Shown one piece after another: positions 35,909-43,650 of a stretch of 64,000 nucleotides of DNA. The notes below the pieces were generated by a model, which had not been told where the DNA came from, did not search any database, and was given only the letters and a program-made list of their open reading frames with translations. The DNA lies in assembly GCF_018128925.1 (NCBI RefSeq), contig NZ_CP067007.1, forward strand, positions 1,156,164 through 1,220,163, in the 5' to 3' direction. This stretch comes from Nitrosopumilus sp. K4 (lineage in GTDB: Archaea > Thermoproteota > Nitrososphaeria > Nitrososphaerales > Nitrosopumilaceae). A program made the translations under genes and the position numbers. Each line of letters starts with the position of its first letter. Positions within the stretch are counted from its first letter, which is position 1.

Positions 35909-37147
35909 TTGCCCAAGATCACATCTATTGAAGGACGTGTGTTATACAATAGCAGAGGCAGTAAAACAATCGAAGTAGACATTATTTCAGATAATCAATT
36001 TCTAGGAAGAGTTTGTGCACCATCCGGTGCTAGTGTAGGAAAATATGAAGCAGTAAGTTTTCCAAATGGAAAGCCAGAAGAAAGTCTCAGAATATTAAAA
36101 GAGAATTCTCAAAAGTTTGTAGGTTTAGAATCATCAGATCTCAAATCAATCCATGATACATTAAAGAGTCTTGACAGCTCAACAAATTATTCAGATATCG
36201 GAGGTGCACTTGCATTTGCTGTAACAATTGCATCCATGGAATCAGCTGCAAAAGCAACAAACCAACAAATGTTTCAGATATTATCATCAGAATCATCTTT
36301 CAAATTCCCATTTCCCCTAGGGAATATTTTGGGAGGGGGAGCTCATGCAGGTCCAGGAACACCAGACATACAAGAAATTTTGATTTGTGCAACAGGCTCA
36401 AAAACTATCAGAGAATCTATTGAGACAAACCTACAGGTCCACAAAGAATTACGAAGTGTTTTACAAAAAGAAGATCCAAGTTTTACAAACGGTAGAGGCG
36501 ATGAAGGTGGATGGGCACCAAAAGCCAATAATGAAAAAGCGTTAGAATTATCTGCAAAGGCAATTGAAAATTTAGGATTTACTTTGGGAAAAGAAGTTTC
36601 ATTAGGAGTTGATTTTGCGTCATCAACACAATGGAATGAAAAAAAACAAAGATACATTTACGATAGAGCAGGATTTGAAAATTCCCCATCAGATCAAATT
36701 GAATTTGCATCTGGCATTATTGAAAAATATAAGCTGATCTATGCCGAAGATGCTGTTCATGAAGAAGCATTTTCAGACATGGCAGAAATTACTGCAAGAT
36801 TTCCAAAGACTTTGGTTACAGGAGACGATCTTACAGTTACTAACAAGAATATTTTGGCAAAGGCAATCGAGGCAAAATCTTGTAATGCTGCAATTCTCAA
36901 AGTAAATCAAGCAGGGAGTCTTTTTGACGCAATAGAATTTGCAGATTTGGCAAATCAGAATAATATTCGATTAATCACATCACATAGATCTGGAGAATCC
37001 ACAGATTCACACATTTCCCACATAGGACTGGCTACAAAGTCAAAAATGCTCAAAGTTGGTGTTGTTGGAGGTGAAAGAGTAGCAAAACTCAATGAGTTGA
37101 TACGCCTATCAGAGCATGATTTAATACGCGGTATGGTTGAGATTTAA
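35909..37147 (+). CDS. eno: Enolase
   Basis: The 412-residue enzyme converts 2-phosphoglycerate to phosphoenolpyruvate, in gluconeogenesis here. Conserved pieces: ARGNPT-equivalent NSRGSKTIEVDI, GNILGGGAHAGPGTPDIQE, FTNGRGDEGGWAP, the metal ligands in LGVDFASS, YAEDAVHEEAF and TGDDLTVTN, and the C-terminal SHRSGESTDSHISHI. Start is TTG, one base after the rpoN stop. Confidence 0.96.
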   Translation: MPKITSIEGRVLYNSRGSKTIEVDIISDNQFLGRVCAPSGASVGKYEAVSFPNGKPEESLRILKENSQKFVGLESSDLKSIHDTLKSLDSSTNYSDIGGALAFAVTIASMESAAKATNQQMFQILSSESSFKFPFPLGNILGGGAHAGPGTPDIQEILICATGSKTIRESIETNLQVHKELRSVLQKEDPSFTNGRGDEGGWAPKANNEKALELSAKAIENLGFTLGKEVSLGVDFASSTQWNEKKQRYIYDRAGFENSPSDQIEFASGIIEKYKLIYAEDAVHEEAFSDMAEITARFPKTLVTGDDLTVTNKNILAKAIEAKSCNAAILKVNQAGSLFDAIEFADLANQNNIRLITSHRSGESTDSHISHIGLATKSKMLKVGVVGGERVAKLNELIRLSEHDLIRGMVEI

Positions 37148-37154
37148 AATCGCT

Positions 37155-37778
37155 ATGAGTCAACAAGCAGAAGCAACAGACATCAAAAAGAAGATCCTAT
37201 CTACAGGGATCAGAGTAGGAACTCAGGTAAAAACTACATTCATGAAGCCATTCATCACAAAGGCTAGTCCAGAAGGGCTTTACATGCTTGATTTAGATAT
37301 CACATTAGAGAGAATTCAAACCGCAGCAAAATTCATCAATCGTTTAGGTGCGGACAAATTAATAGTGTGTTCAGCAAGACAGTATGCAAACACACCAATT
37401 GAGAAGTTTTGTGAGGTTTTAGGCTCAAAGAAACTATTGGGCAGATTCATGCCAGGTACTTTAACAAATCCTTCATTGCCATATTATATTGAACCAAAAA
37501 TTTTGCTAATTTCTGATCCTCAAGTAGATGAACAAGCAATCACTGAGGCAACAAACGCAGGAATTCCAGTTATCGGCATTGCCAATACAGATAACATTAC
37601 ATCAAAATTAGATGTAGTCATTCCAGCAAACAATAGAGGAAGAAAAGCTCTTGCCACGGTTTATTGGCTTTTGGTTCGTCAAATTCTCATAGAAAGAGGA
37701 GAATTAAAAGAAGACGATCCAATGAAATACGAAATCGATGATTTTGAAACAAAGATTACGGAAGAGGAAATAGAGTAA
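37155..37778 (+). CDS. rps2: 30S ribosomal protein S2 (uS2)
   Basis: A 207-residue archaeal uS2 (SA/p40 type): GIRVGTQVKTTFMKPFI, LDLDITLERIQTAAKFI, RFMPGTLTNP, PVIGIANTDN and IPANNRGRKALATVYWLL. ATG 37155 is chosen because the longer frame (from 37137) overlaps the end of enolase with non-family residues. The last base of its stop starts the MEMO gene (TAATG). Confidence 0.95.
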   Translation: MSQQAEATDIKKKILSTGIRVGTQVKTTFMKPFITKASPEGLYMLDLDITLERIQTAAKFINRLGADKLIVCSARQYANTPIEKFCEVLGSKKLLGRFMPGTLTNPSLPYYIEPKILLISDPQVDEQAITEATNAGIPVIGIANTDNITSKLDVVIPANNRGRKALATVYWLLVRQILIERGELKEDDPMKYEIDDFETKITEEEIE

Positions 37779-38611
37779 TGCAAATTAGAACACCGGCTGT
37801 AGCCGGAATGTTCTATCCAGGCGAAAAAAATGAATTAAAACAATCAATCAAAGAATCATTTTTGCACAAATTTGGACCAGGAAAATTTCCTCCATCAAAT
37901 GACAGAAAAAAAATTTTTGGGATAATTTGTCCACATGCAGGGTACATGTATTCAGGTCCAATTGCATGCCAATCATTTTATGCAATATCATCAGATATTC
38001 CAGAACTTTTCATAATCATAGGGCCAAATCATTGGGGTGTTGGAAGCAATGTTGCAACAATGAAAGATTGTAAATGGGAAACGCCACTAGGGCAAGTAGA
38101 AGTCGATTCAGATACAGCAGAAAAGATTTCAAAGATTACAAATATTATAGAAATAGACAGTTTTGCACATTCAAGAGAACACAGTCTAGAGGTACAAATT
38201 CCATTCTTGCAAGAAATGGCATCAAATTTCAAAATTGTTCCAATCTCATTAATTGATCAGAGAAAAGATGTTTCCATAGAAATTGGTAAGTCAATTGCAA
38301 AAATTGCTAAAGAAAAGAAAACAATGATTGTAGGTTCATCAGATTTTACACATTATGAACCAAATGAATTTGCTCATGAGCAAGATTTGGCTTTAATTGA
38401 GCCTATTTTAGAATTAGACGTAGATAGATTTTATGAGATTTTACAGGAAAGAAATGTTAGTGCTTGTGGATATGGCGCTATTGCATCAACAATGGTTGCA
38501 TGCAAAGAACTTGGTGCCACAAAAGGAGAATTGCTAAAGTATGCTACAAGTGGAGACATTACAGGAGATAAGAGTTCTGTTGTTGGATACGGGTCGATAA
38601 TTTTCACTTGA
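37778..38611 (+). CDS. MEMO-family protein (AmmeMemoRadiSam system protein B)
   Basis: A 277-residue MEMO protein related in fold to extradiol dioxygenases. It starts QIRTPAVAGMFYPG and includes ICPHAGYMYSGPIA, IGPNHWG, AHSREHSLEVQIPFLQ, VGSSDFTHYEP and a Gly-rich YGSIIF end. The His residues H47-type (CPHAGY) and HSREHS could bind metal. The biochemical role in archaea is unresolved. It is translationally coupled to rps2 and mevalonate kinase. Confidence 0.93.
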   Translation: MQIRTPAVAGMFYPGEKNELKQSIKESFLHKFGPGKFPPSNDRKKIFGIICPHAGYMYSGPIACQSFYAISSDIPELFIIIGPNHWGVGSNVATMKDCKWETPLGQVEVDSDTAEKISKITNIIEIDSFAHSREHSLEVQIPFLQEMASNFKIVPISLIDQRKDVSIEIGKSIAKIAKEKKTMIVGSSDFTHYEPNEFAHEQDLALIEPILELDVDRFYEILQERNVSACGYGAIASTMVACKELGATKGELLKYATSGDITGDKSSVVGYGSIIFT

Positions 38612-39555
38612 AATCTAAAGCATCTGCACCAGGCAAAGTAATTCTTTTTGGAGAGCATTTTGTTGTATATGGAGTAAAAGCAATTCTTTGTGCAATAGAT
38701 AAAAGAATTACAGTTACGGCCGAACAAATTCCAGAAGACAAAATATCAATAAAATCCAATATTGGAAAATTAGAGATTCCAACAAACGAATCAATCACAG
38801 AAATAGATTCACCATTAAAACCATTTTGTTATCTGGCAAGCAAATTGATTCAAAAATATAATTCAAAATCAGGCATAAATATCACGGTAGAATCTGAAAT
38901 ACCATTAGGAGTTGGATTAGGTTCATCATCAGCTTGTTGTGTTGCAGGAGCTGCAGCAATTTCTCAGTTATTTGAAGAAACAAGTAAGGAGAAAATTTTA
39001 GAGTTAGCAATTGAAGCTGAAAAAACGATTTTCCAAAATACATCAGGTGCAGATTGTACAGTTTGTGCCTTTGGAGGACTAATGGAATATGATAAGAAAA
39101 AGGGATTTTCCAAGATTGATACAGAATCAAATTTTCATTTGGTCATAGTAAATTCAAACATAGAGCATTCCACAGATGCAGTCGTGTCAAATGTAAAAAA
39201 ATTCAAAGACAGTAATGAGGAACAATTTTTGAATTTATGCAAAAAGGAATCAGAGTTGATCAATAAAGTAATGAAAAATCTAAAGAACAAGGATTTGAAA
39301 GAGCTTGGAAATATGATGCATAAAAATCAAGAGTTTTTAGAAACCATAGGCATCTCAAATGAAAAACTTCGTCAAATGATCAACGTTGCAGAAACCATAG
39401 CATACGGTGCAAAAATTACAGGTGCAGGGGGAGGAGGATGCATTATAGCATTAACAGATGAGTCAAATCTTGAAAAAACCATCTCTCAATTGAGAGGGAA
39501 AAATTATGATTGTTTTTCTGTAAGAATTGATCATAAGGGATTGGATACTTTTTAA
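38608..39555 (+). CDS. mvk: Mevalonate kinase
   Basis: The 315-residue GHMP kinase phosphorylates mevalonate in isoprenoid synthesis. Motif 1 is KASAPGKVILFGEHFVVYG, motif 2 the ATP loop PLGVGLGSSSACCVAGAAA (about 96-114), and motif 3 GAKITGAGGGGCIIAL. A TTG start overlaps the MEMO stop (TTGA). It opens the isoprenoid run mvk-ipk-idi-prenyl synthase. Confidence 0.95.
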   Translation: MKSKASAPGKVILFGEHFVVYGVKAILCAIDKRITVTAEQIPEDKISIKSNIGKLEIPTNESITEIDSPLKPFCYLASKLIQKYNSKSGINITVESEIPLGVGLGSSSACCVAGAAAISQLFEETSKEKILELAIEAEKTIFQNTSGADCTVCAFGGLMEYDKKKGFSKIDTESNFHLVIVNSNIEHSTDAVVSNVKKFKDSNEEQFLNLCKKESELINKVMKNLKNKDLKELGNMMHKNQEFLETIGISNEKLRQMINVAETIAYGAKITGAGGGGCIIALTDESNLEKTISQLRGKNYDCFSVRIDHKGLDTF

Positions 39556-39578: not shown

Positions 39579-40331
39579 ATGATTCTCATAAAACTTGGAG
39601 GTTCAATTATAACAAATAAGGAAAAACCATTAACACCAAGAAAAAAAGTTATTGAAAATATTGCAAAGAAACTAAAAAAGATAAATGAGCCAATAATAGT
39701 TGTTCATGGAGGCGGCTCATATGGACACTATTGGTCTGTCAAATATGATATGCACACAAAACCAAAAAAATATGACATGCATGGGGTAGCAATTGTAAAA
39801 AATTCAATGATTGATCTTAACAAAATTATTGTAGATGTATTTGTAAAAAACAAGTTAAACCCATATTCTCTCCCACCAACAGATTTCATGACAGGAAACA
39901 AACCTATTTCAAAAAAAATCAAAGAAATTGAAAAAATTGCAAAGGCAGGATTAATTCCAGTAACTTATGGTGATGCTCTTTGGTATGGAGAGAAAAAGAC
40001 ATACATTTTATCAGGTGACAAAATCATGACACATTTGTCCAAAATTCTAAAACCAAGATTAAGTATTTTTGCATTAAACGAAGATGGGCTTTACTCAGAT
40101 CTTAAAACAAAAGAGTTGATTCAAGAATTGAAAGGAGAGAACCCTACAATCTCTGAAAACAAAATGGATGTGACAGGCGGAATGACTAGAAAAGTTGAAG
40201 AGGCATCAAAAATTGCAAAATTCGGAGTTAGTGTATTTTTTGTAAATGGCAACAAACCAGAAAGGATTGTGAAAGCTGTTAAAAATAGGAAATATGAAGG
40301 AACATTGTTTAGAGGAAAAAGAAATGGCTGA
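39579..40331 (+). CDS. ipk: Isopentenyl phosphate kinase
   Basis: A 250-residue amino-acid-kinase-fold enzyme. It has an N-terminal IKLGGSIITNKEKPLT and the catalytic-His block HGGGSYGHYWSVKYDM. LIPVTYGDALW, ILSGDKIMTHLSKIL and KMDVTGGMTRKVEEA follow. It makes isopentenyl diphosphate from isopentenyl phosphate, the last step of the archaeal modified mevalonate route. It overlaps the next gene by 8 bases. Confidence 0.95.
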   Translation: MILIKLGGSIITNKEKPLTPRKKVIENIAKKLKKINEPIIVVHGGGSYGHYWSVKYDMHTKPKKYDMHGVAIVKNSMIDLNKIIVDVFVKNKLNPYSLPPTDFMTGNKPISKKIKEIEKIAKAGLIPVTYGDALWYGEKKTYILSGDKIMTHLSKILKPRLSIFALNEDGLYSDLKTKELIQELKGENPTISENKMDVTGGMTRKVEEASKIAKFGVSVFFVNGNKPERIVKAVKNRKYEGTLFRGKRNG

Positions 40332-40962
40332 ATATGTAATTTTAGTAGATGAAAATGACAAGCCCATAGGTTCTGAAGAAAAAGTCAAGTGTCACCTACC
40401 AAACGGAAAACTCCATAGAGCATTTACAGCATTATTGTTTGATAAAAATGGCAGGCTGGTATTAACTAGAAGGGCAAAGGAAAAAATGCTCTGGCCAGGA
40501 GACTGGGATGGAACAGTTGCAAGTCATCCCAGAGAGGGAGAGACATATGCATCATCTGCAGAAAGAAGAATGCCTGAAGAATTGGGCATACCCTGTAAAA
40601 TGGATTATTTGATGAAATTTGAATATCATGTCCCATACAAAAACATAGGCTCAGAAAATGAGATTTGTGGAACATTAATAGGAATTGTTGATGAATCAAC
40701 CCAATTCAAAATGGTTGAAGGTGAAATTGATGAGATAAAATGGGCATCAGCAAATGAACTTTTATCTGAAATCAAAAGTAATCCAAAAATTTATTGTCCA
40801 TGGATGTTAATTGCATTAGAATTCTTAGAAAAATCAGACAAACAAATGCTTGAAAAGCACCAAAAGATATTATCATCATGGATAACTGATGAAATGAAAA
40901 ATGAGTTGCTCAAAGCAATCAAAATTCATCTTCCAGAAGAGAAGTGGAGGTTAGTAGAGTGA
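40324..40962 (+). CDS. IDI type 1-like Nudix protein lacking the catalytic cysteine
   Basis: A 212-residue Nudix protein with type 1 isopentenyl-diphosphate isomerase architecture: EYVILVDENDKPIG, HRAFTALLFDKNGRLVLTRRA, WPGDWDGT, the Nudix segment and ENEICGTLIG with the conserved Glu. In E. coli IDI the catalytic Cys is in VCGHP; here the same position reads VASHP (Ala66, codon 40519-40521). Position in the mevalonate operon supports a prenyl-diphosphate substrate. Either it uses another residue or it is not an active isomerase. I start at ATG 40324 inside the ipk end. Confidence 0.85.
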   Translation: MAEYVILVDENDKPIGSEEKVKCHLPNGKLHRAFTALLFDKNGRLVLTRRAKEKMLWPGDWDGTVASHPREGETYASSAERRMPEELGIPCKMDYLMKFEYHVPYKNIGSENEICGTLIGIVDESTQFKMVEGEIDEIKWASANELLSEIKSNPKIYCPWMLIALEFLEKSDKQMLEKHQKILSSWITDEMKNELLKAIKIHLPEEKWRLVE

Positions 40963-41939
40963 AAAAAACAAATTCAATTGAAAAAAATGCCAAAGTTGTA
41001 AATCGATATTTGAATTATAAATTAAAAGGAGACCCAAAAATGCTCTATGATGCAGCAGGTCATCTAATAGTTAACGGAGGAAAAAGATTACGTCCATACA
41101 TGGTTATGAAAAGTTGCCAGATACTTGGAGGAAAAGTGTCAAACGCCATGCCAGCTGCAAGTGCAGTTGAGATGGTTCATAATTTTACCCTAGTTCATGA
41201 TGACATAATGGATAATGATGAAATGAGACACGGAGTTCCAACTGTGCATAAAAAATTTGGAATGCCAATTGCAATACTTGCAGGAGATGTTTTATTTTCA
41301 AAAGCATATCAAGTGATTTCAGATTCAAAGATATCTGAAAAATCAACAATCCAATTGATTTCAAGACTAGCAAAAGCTTGTGTTGATGTTTGTGAAGGTC
41401 AACTACTAGACATCAGAATGGCAGAGCAAAAGAAAATCCCATCACAATCAGACTATATTACAATGATTGGTAAAAAAACAGCAGCGTTATTTGATGTGTC
41501 TTGTGCCATGGGGGCAATTTGTGCTACAGATCAAACAAAAGATATTGCAAACCTTTCGACGTTTGGAAGGAATTTGGGAATTGCATTTCAGATAACAGAT
41601 GATTTGATAGGAGTGATGGGAGATTCAAGGATCACTAAAAAACCCGTAGGAAATGATCTAAGAGAGGGTAAGAAATCACTACCCATACTAATGGCAATAA
41701 AGATGTCAAAAGGTAAAGACAAAAAGACAATCTTAAGGGCATTTGGAAATCCAAGAGCCACCAAAAATGATCTTAAAAACGCTGTTGAAGCAATTCGTAG
41801 GCTCGGAATCGAAGATAATGTGAGAAATCAAGCTCTAAAATACGCAAAAAAGGCAGAAGATTCACTCAAAAAATATTCTGGAAGTTCAAAAAATGAATTA
41901 ATTTCATTGTTAGATTTTGTTGTAAAAAGGAGTTTGTAA
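40959..41939 (+). CDS. Polyprenyl diphosphate synthase (GGPP/FPP synthase family)
   Basis: A ~326-residue trans-prenyltransferase with both aspartate motifs: FARM HDDIMDNDEMRHG (about residues 86-98) and SARM ITDDLIGVMGD. It also has GGKRLRPYMV, the Lys pair GKKTAALFD and KKSLPILMA. It supplies geranylgeranyl chains for archaeal ether lipids. I use GTG 40959, whose GTGA overlaps the stop of the preceding gene; GTG 40944 is an alternative five codons longer. Confidence 0.93.
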   Translation: MKKTNSIEKNAKVVNRYLNYKLKGDPKMLYDAAGHLIVNGGKRLRPYMVMKSCQILGGKVSNAMPAASAVEMVHNFTLVHDDIMDNDEMRHGVPTVHKKFGMPIAILAGDVLFSKAYQVISDSKISEKSTIQLISRLAKACVDVCEGQLLDIRMAEQKKIPSQSDYITMIGKKTAALFDVSCAMGAICATDQTKDIANLSTFGRNLGIAFQITDDLIGVMGDSRITKKPVGNDLREGKKSLPILMAIKMSKGKDKKTILRAFGNPRATKNDLKNAVEAIRRLGIEDNVRNQALKYAKKAEDSLKKYSGSSKNELISLLDFVVKRSL

Positions 41940-41940
41940 C

Positions 41941-43650
41941 TTGAATGAAGATTTAGCAAAGGAAGTTAGGAAATTAGCATTACAGAATGCTTTTGAGCAT
42001 GAAGGTAAAACACAAGATAAAATAATTTTGGCAAAAATTCTTGGGACACAGCCAGAATACAGAACAAAAGTAAAAGAAATCATTGAAGATATTTCCAGAA
42101 TTGTTGCTTCGGTAAATGAATTACCATTTGAACATCAAAAAAAAGAGATTGAAGAAAATTTTCCAGAATTATTAGCCCCAAAAGAAAAAATTGAAGAAAG
42201 AGAGGGACTACCTCCATTAGCTAATGCAGAGCAAGGAAAAGTCATTACAAGATTTCCACCTGAACCGAATGGGTATCCACACATAGGACATGCAAAAGCA
42301 GCCATCATCAATGCAGAATATGCAAAAATGTATGGTGGAAAATGTATTCTAAGAATGGATGATACAAATCCAGAAGCAGAAAGAATGGAGTATCATGCAG
42401 CAATAAAAGTAGGACTAGATTGGCTTGGAATTGAATTTGATACTGTAAAGAGTACTTCTAATGATATGGAATTATTTTATGAAAAAGGAATGGAACTGAT
42501 AAATTCTGGAAAGGCGTATGTATGCACCTGTAAAAGAGACGACATCAGTAAAAACAGAAGAGAAAGAAAGGCTTGCAAGTGTAGTTTTGAAGATATTAAC
42601 AAGAACAACAAAGGATGGGAAAAAATGTTTGATAAATACAAGGCAGGGGAGGCAATTGTCAGATTTCGAGGAGATATGAAAGCAGATAATGCAGTTATGA
42701 GAGATCCAGTATTGTTCAGAATAATTGACGAGAAGCACTACACATTAGGTGATAAATACAGAGTATGGCCCAGTTATGATTTTGCAGTTGCTATAGAAGA
42801 TAGCCATGATGGAATAACGCATGCATTTCGTTCAAAAGAATTTGAGTTAAGAAAAGAGTTGATTGATGCAATTTTAGACGCATTAGGCATGAGAAAACCA
42901 TATCAGGGTTTCTTCTCCAGGCTCGAATTCAAGGGAATGCCCATATCAAAAAGAATTCTCAAGCCATTAATCGAAGAGGGAAAAGTTTCATGGTATGATG
43001 ATCCAAGACTTCCAACATTAGAAGCATTAAGAAGAAGAGGAATAAAGCCAGAAGCCATAAAGAAATTTGTTCTGTCATTAGGATTAACAAAAGCAAATAC
43101 CCTAGCACCATTTGATGCTCTTGAGGCATTTAACAGGAAATTTGTTGATGCAGATAGTATCAGGTTGTTTATGGTGTCAAGACCAAAAAAAATCACAATT
43201 AAGAAAATACCAATGTCATTTGTAGAGATTCCAAATCATCCGATAAAAGATATCGGAAAACGAAGGATTGAGATTGATGAGAATTTTTTGATTGCAGGAG
43301 ATGATGCAGACAACATCAAGGAAGGAGATCAAGTAAGATTACTGGGTTTAGGAAATATTCGTATTAATAAAATCGGTGCAGAATTTGAAAGTGAATTTAT
43401 CGGAGAAGGTGAAACTGCAAACATTCCAAAAATCCAATGGGTTCCAGAAAAAAATTCACATGAAATTAGATTATTGATTCCAAAACAATTGTTCATAGAT
43501 GAGGAATTTAATGAAGAAAGCTTAGAAGAGCTTGACGTTTATACAGAGCCTCAATATTTACAATTAAAAGAAGGAGAAGAAATTCAGTTTGTTAGATTTG
43601 GTTATTGTAGAAAAGACTCACAAAATCAAGCCATCTTCACACACAAGTGA
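41941..43650 (+). CDS. gltX: Glutamyl-tRNA synthetase (archaeal, probably non-discriminating)
   Basis: The 569-residue class I synthetase shows a HIGH motif (PNGYPHIGHAKAA), DDTNPEAERMEYH, a zinc-type insert CTCKRDD...ACKC, the KMSKS-like GMPISKRILKP and a beta-barrel anticodon-binding C-terminal half as in archaeal/eukaryotic GluRS and GlnRS. Archaea without GlnRS use it to charge both tRNA-Glu and tRNA-Gln. TTG start two bases after the prenyl synthase stop. Confidence 0.95.
   Translation: MNEDLAKEVRKLALQNAFEHEGKTQDKIILAKILGTQPEYRTKVKEIIEDISRIVASVNELPFEHQKKEIEENFPELLAPKEKIEEREGLPPLANAEQGKVITRFPPEPNGYPHIGHAKAAIINAEYAKMYGGKCILRMDDTNPEAERMEYHAAIKVGLDWLGIEFDTVKSTSNDMELFYEKGMELINSGKAYVCTCKRDDISKNRRERKACKCSFEDINKNNKGWEKMFDKYKAGEAIVRFRGDMKADNAVMRDPVLFRIIDEKHYTLGDKYRVWPSYDFAVAIEDSHDGITHAFRSKEFELRKELIDAILDALGMRKPYQGFFSRLEFKGMPISKRILKPLIEEGKVSWYDDPRLPTLEALRRRGIKPEAIKKFVLSLGLTKANTLAPFDALEAFNRKFVDADSIRLFMVSRPKKITIKKIPMSFVEIPNHPIKDIGKRRIEIDENFLIAGDDADNIKEGDQVRLLGLGNIRINKIGAEFESEFIGEGETANIPKIQWVPEKNSHEIRLLIPKQLFIDEEFNEESLEELDVYTEPQYLQLKEGEEIQFVRFGYCRKDSQNQAIFTHK

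Follow-up and report, generated by a model that had tools for sequence, protein, structure and literature searches.

The question raised by this locus is how a protein with the features of a type 1 isopentenyl-diphosphate (IPP) isomerase can serve its cell without the catalytic cysteine. Work on the E. coli, yeast and human Cys-type enzymes (IDI1) holds that protons are added and removed by Glu116 with Tyr104 and, on the opposite face, by Cys67, and the E. coli and yeast proteins retain little or no activity once the Cys is exchanged for Ala. The epoxide inhibitor EIPP alkylates this Cys in Cys-type enzymes. The gene in question lies in a 64,000-nucleotide stretch of the Nitrosopumilus sp. K4 genome, henceforth referred to as the window, and carries Ala at this position. 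A preliminary description made from the window had noted the substitution and offered three explanations: a type 2 isomerase encoded elsewhere, activity on another diphosphate, or a different chemistry. The reading put forward here, to which we assign a probability of about 0.85, is that the gene encodes the cell's only IPP delta-isomerase, a member of a Cys-less type 1 subfamily that took over the operon position of the ancestral, flavin-dependent type 2 isomerase.

The gene is an intact ORF of 639 bases at 40324-40962 on the forward strand, which carries all features described below, and encodes 212 amino acids. Bases 40516-40530 read gtt gca agt cat ccc (V65-A66-S67-H68-P69), and Ala66, encoded by the GCA codon at 40519-40521, is placed opposite catalytic Cys67 of E. 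coli Idi in a phmmer alignment. Codon reading and alignment thus agree with the preliminary description, and the glutamate block that it reported as kept is present as E111-N-E113. The protein scored 118.8 bits against TIGR02150 (curated cut-off 105.8) and 142.7 bits against NF002995 (curated cut-off 127); haloarchaeal members fall just below the curated IDI1 cut-off (97.6 versus 105.8).

An AF2 model of the protein was obtained with a mean pLDDT of 97.2 and a pTM of 0.93. The best 16 PDB matches of the model are all type 1 IPP isomerases from E. coli, Salmonella or human, the next being Nudix proteins of the YfcD and DR0079 kind, and the TM-score to E. coli and human IDI1 reaches 0.85 by target length. 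The fold is the Nudix-derived alpha/beta fold of IDI1 and not the FMN TIM-barrel of the type 2 enzymes. About 40 extra C-terminal residues (40833-40959), apparently absent from E. coli Idi and from the majority of haloarchaeal copies, form helices at 173-202 and a strand at 208-211 and are confidently placed in the model.

Residues H24, H31, R50, K54, H68, R82, E86, Y101, E111, E113, E134 and W160 are invariant in a 44-row mixed alignment of Ala- and Cys-type sequences, from which the plasmid rows were left out. The window protein keeps the metal site (H25/H32/H69/E114/E116 plus E87 in E. coli numbering), and the catalytic residues Glu116, Tyr104 and Trp161 of E. coli correspond to E113, Y101 and W160. 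The Nudix box is incomplete, with Arg (R82) in place of the catalytic Glu of the REUXEE motif. At this position, R83 in E. coli numbering, 37/37 Cys-type rows and 167/168 Ala-type rows have Arg and 38/40 non-IDI Nudix relatives have Glu, and the presence of Arg in both IDI types argues against a hydrolase. Two cysteines conserved in the Ala-type subfamily lie close to these residues. C115 (E. coli position 118) follows E113 by two residues in the segment E111-N-E113-I-C115 (40654-40668), which holds the metal-binding and catalytic Glu pair, and alternates with E111 and E113 on one strand (109-121) of the AF2 model. C158 (E. coli position 159) precedes W160, the Trp expected to face the carbocation, by two residues in C158-P159-W160 (40795-40803).

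Conservation of the Ala was assessed in a phylum-wide search of 300 genomes, 44 of which belong to the window's family (Nitrosopumilaceae-like) and 256 to other groups. An IDI1 homologue was found in all 44 family genomes, and every copy carries Ala within V/F-A-S-H-P, encoded by GCA in 30 genomes, GCT in 12, and GCC and GCG in one each. The dN/dS ratio between close family pairs is 0.04-0.09, which shows strong purifying selection on the protein. The Ala shared by 44/44 genomes, its four different codons and the low dN/dS together indicate that the residue is kept at the protein level and is no sequencing error. Sequencing error and gene decay were both ruled out as explanations by the 44/44 count and the dN/dS values.

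The gene lies in the mevalonate operon. As the preliminary description had proposed, the neighbours are an isopentenyl phosphate kinase (IPK) at 39579-40331 (NF040647, 204.9 bits, cut-off 120) and an IdsA-like short-chain prenyl diphosphate synthase at 40944-41939, which matches NF041003/NF040698 with E of about 1e-89 while remaining under the curated cut-off. Mevalonate kinase (MVK) precedes them at 38608-39555 (TIGR00549, 228.7 bits, cut-off 163). The isomerase ORF shares its first 8 bases with IPK (40324-40331), and the IdsA-like gene starts within it, an overlap of 19 bases (40944-40962); these overlaps suggest translational coupling. Genes for enolase, uS2 and a MEMO-like protein (35909-38611) upstream and for glutamyl-tRNA synthetase (41941-43650) downstream, all named by eye, serve as syntenic markers by comparison with the loci of same-order relatives outside the family (L248 for the upstream genes, L248-L250 for the downstream gene) and, for the downstream gene, also with the other family loci.

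In two of these relatives (L248 and L250) the gene order is eno-uS2-MEMO-MVK-IPK-IDI2-IdsA-GluRS, and in a third (L249) IPK-IDI2-IdsA-GluRS is kept; the identity of the type 2 isomerase (IDI2) in this slot was confirmed. The window and other family loci have the identical gene order with the Cys-less IDI1 sitting in the IDI2 slot, and the same swap is present in L056, from a branch adjoining the family in the tree. Within the mevalonate operon, IDI1 and IDI2 have thus been swapped in place. This exchange is the strongest evidence that the window protein is an IPP isomerase.

The occurrence of the Ala form outside the family was surveyed by two routes. A DNA pattern scan, which required Ala and G/C-ending codons and was therefore unable to measure the frequency of Ala, returned 120 stretches, all encoding a Cys-less IDI1 except for two chance matches in Caulobacterales. 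The members are mostly haloarchaea, together with a Marine Group IV archaeon, a Woesearchaeote, one Nitrospirota MAG and thaumarchaea. The Caulobacter and Asticcacaulis matches were rejected, as no IDI homologue is present there. The motif WDGTVASHP (W61-P69, 40504-40530 in the window) is an Ala-type signature that recurs in haloarchaea, Hikarchaeia, Woesearchaeota and Nitrospirota.

Because the scan selects for Ala, a separate set of 145 genomes was drawn evenly, without regard to the motif, from the class that contains Haloferax (Halobacteria). An IDI1 homologue was detected in 144/145 of these genomes and IDI2 in 51/145, leaving 94/145 with IDI1 only. Both the Cys-less IDI1 and IDI2 are carried by 50/145, and one genome (G762) has IDI2 only. 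WDGTVASHP was present in 50/50 haloarchaeal copies read, comprising the 30 strongest matches and 20 among the weakest. The Ala is therefore conserved in thaumarchaeal and haloarchaeal homologues alike and is not peculiar to the window. Haloarchaeal genomes hold one full-length Ala-type locus each, with second matches short or weak only, and no hidden Cys-type paralogue was found in them. The 94 Halobacteria with IDI1 only, together with the window's family, separately imply an essential role of the Cys-less IDI1 in two archaeal lineages.

A signature for the subfamily was derived from an alignment of 168 Ala-type and 37 Cys-type sequences in E. coli numbering; the Ala-type rows come mostly from the pattern scan, so that the counts are weighted heavily towards haloarchaea. 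Bacterial Cys-type idi genes and distant Nudix proteins in the plasmid and phage records read served as the contrast set. The Ala-type signature is W[DE][GA][TS]xAS, G112, Cys118 and Cys159. Position 63 is D/E in Ala-type rows versus S/T/A in Cys-type rows, position 64 is G/A in all Ala-type rows but one versus N in every Cys-type row, position 68 is S in every Ala-type row, and G112 is nearly fixed among them. Cys118 occurs in 167/167 readable Ala-type rows versus 10/37 Cys-type rows, and Cys159 in 161/168 versus 0/37. At position 74 the Nudix-box Glu is changed to Gln in 104/168 Ala-type rows (97% of haloarchaeal copies), a further change near the site that is specific to this lineage. Among the plasmid records, 64 from E. 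coli carry an idi homologue (35% identical), which in one record (L239) follows a gene for a "class 1 isoprenoid biosynthesis enzyme"; this plasmid appears to carry an isoprenoid module.

In the tree, a branch with support of 98/93 sets the Cys-type rows apart. The Ala-type rows other than L048 group at 87/81, and the Nudix outgroups attach between the two. Either Ala or Cys may be the older state. L048 has Ala and lies on a long branch outside the Ala clade, and it was not counted as typical. It is a very divergent IDI-like protein that reads WEFP-ASHI, keeps the metal and Glu residues and has Thr at the Arg83 position; its genome (G218) holds no IDI2 over the cut-off. A Cys-type IDI1 reading WSNTCCSHP (L046) comes from a MAG of the window's phylum with 62% completeness (G234) and groups with DPANN sequences.

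The explanations other than an IPP isomerase encoded by this gene were weighed against the content of the genomes. Were an IDI2 or the MEP pathway to supply dimethylallyl diphosphate (DMAPP) from elsewhere while the window gene decays, a corresponding gene would be expected in the genome, and IDI2 is indeed present in most archaea, including 243/256 of the genomes from the rest of the phylum. The window's genome is a single contig with 99.94% completeness, and within the sensitivity of the search it contains no IDI2 (TIGR02151), no IspH and no second IDI1 homologue, the IDI1 profile giving one match only. The sole IDI2 match, at 18 bits, is to a protein that reads as TrpA, and no IDI2 over the cut-off occurs in any of the 44 family genomes. 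The first explanation of the preliminary description, a type 2 enzyme elsewhere, did not survive these searches, and with a dN/dS of 0.04-0.09 also speaking against decay, supply from elsewhere is considered extremely improbable. A Nudix-type hydrolase or regulator acting on IPP, isopentenyl phosphate or another diphosphate, with an unknown enzyme making DMAPP, fits the loss of the catalytic Cys and the resemblance of D62 and the small residues at 66-67 to YfcD-like hydrolases. This proposal conflicts with R82, the Arg found at the hydrolase Glu as in all IDI1, and with E111, Y101 and W160, which are IDI-specific and missing from YfcD-like relatives. The gene also occupies the slot of IDI2, which is absent wherever the swap occurred, and the proposal needs an unknown DMAPP-forming enzyme separately in Nitrosopumilaceae and in most Halobacteria. 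We consider such a role improbable. The preliminary suggestion of another diphosphate substrate is accordingly unlikely, since the gene holds the IDI2 slot of the relatives and two separate archaeal lineages offer no other IDI candidate.

IPP isomerase activity is inferred for the window protein with high confidence, and its active site is probably a modified one. Of the three early explanations, different chemistry fares best and is probably right for one catalytic step, the other IDI1 residues all being kept. In the proposed mechanism, H24, H31, H68, E111 and E113 would form the metal centre, with E86, Y101 and W160 used as in IDI1, and the diphosphate would be bound by the basic residues that align with K21, R51, K55 and R83 of E. 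coli. The C3-C4 double bond of IPP would receive its proton from E113 and Y101, W160 would face the carbocation, and the C2 proton would be taken by a group, speculative in its identity, that stands in for the thiol of position 66. The leading candidate for this role may be the substrate diphosphate or an ordered water, either one positioned by the D62/T64/S67 loop, followed by E113 acting on both sides and then by a relocated thiol (C115 or, less consistently, C158). Catalysis by the Cys-less archaeal subfamily without any thiol, with water, diphosphate or one Glu taking the second proton, is judged to have roughly an even chance of being correct, and possibly entails suprafacial instead of antarafacial stereochemistry. 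A moved thiol, in which C115 or C158 replaces the Cys at position 66 and two-base Cys/Glu chemistry is kept, would explain the enrichment of Cys118 and Cys159 in Ala-type rows, the position of C115 on the E111/E113 strand of the model and the closeness of C158 to W160. Against it, wild-type E. coli Idi has Cys118, yet its C67A form is reported to be inactive, and position 159 is Ser, Thr or Val in 6 rows from DPANN, Nitrospirota and others. The moved thiol is therefore regarded as a tentative and rather unlikely account.

That the IDI1 genes of Haloarchaea and Thaumarchaeota are horizontal transfers from bacteria was already known (Lombard and colleagues, PMC3533463). H. volcanii HVO_2506 and H. 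mediterranei HFX_2519 have been named as isomerase by homology only (PMC13358004, PMC6282799), the H. mediterranei IdI assignment resting on 32% identity to the E. coli protein. In the open-access literature we found no report of a missing Cys in an archaeal IDI1, nor any assay or knockout of an Ala-type member. The Cys/Glu pair is the textbook account of type 1 IPP isomerase. If the abundant Nitrosopumilaceae and the tractable Haloferax rely on an IDI1 that lacks the Cys, a thiol is one solution and not a requirement, and, should this hold for Haloferax, a genetic model is at hand for dissecting the mechanism. In the ammonia-oxidising archaea of the sea and in most of the salt-loving ones, the enzyme appears to supply one of the two membrane-lipid building blocks. 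The results also warn against using the Cys as a diagnostic residue in IDI1 annotation and pinpoint an archaeal lipid operon in which an unrelated enzyme has taken the place of a flavoenzyme.

Compared with known systems, the window protein has in common with E. coli Idi, human IDI1 and yeast Idi1 the fold, the metal ligands, E87/Y104/W161, the phosphate-binding residues R51/K55/R83 and the TIGR02150 HMM, whereas its subfamily has Ala at Cys67, [DE][GA] instead of [STA]N at positions 63-64, G112, Cys118 and Cys159. Human IDI2 (PDB 2PNY), which presumably has Ser at the catalytic Cys position, is likewise an IDI1 without the Cys, but it is a paralogue beside an intact IDI1 and does not serve whole lineages as their only such enzyme. 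The engineered E. coli C67A enzyme (PDB 1OW2) shows the same residue as the window protein at position 67 and is a laboratory mutant. YfcD- and DR0079-like proteins share the Nudix fold, a small residue at 67 and D63, but keep the Nudix catalytic Glu and lack E114, Y104 and W161. The type 2 enzyme (fni/IDI2, TIGR02151) catalyses the same reaction and holds the same MVK-IPK-x-IdsA slot in relatives, but is an unrelated flavin-dependent FMN TIM-barrel that is absent from the window's genome. Haloarchaeal IdiA is about 40% identical to the window protein, with Haloferax gibbonsii (L054) as a member and WDGTVASHP in the 50/50 copies read, which are haloarchaeal copies other than HVO_2506 and HFX_2519.
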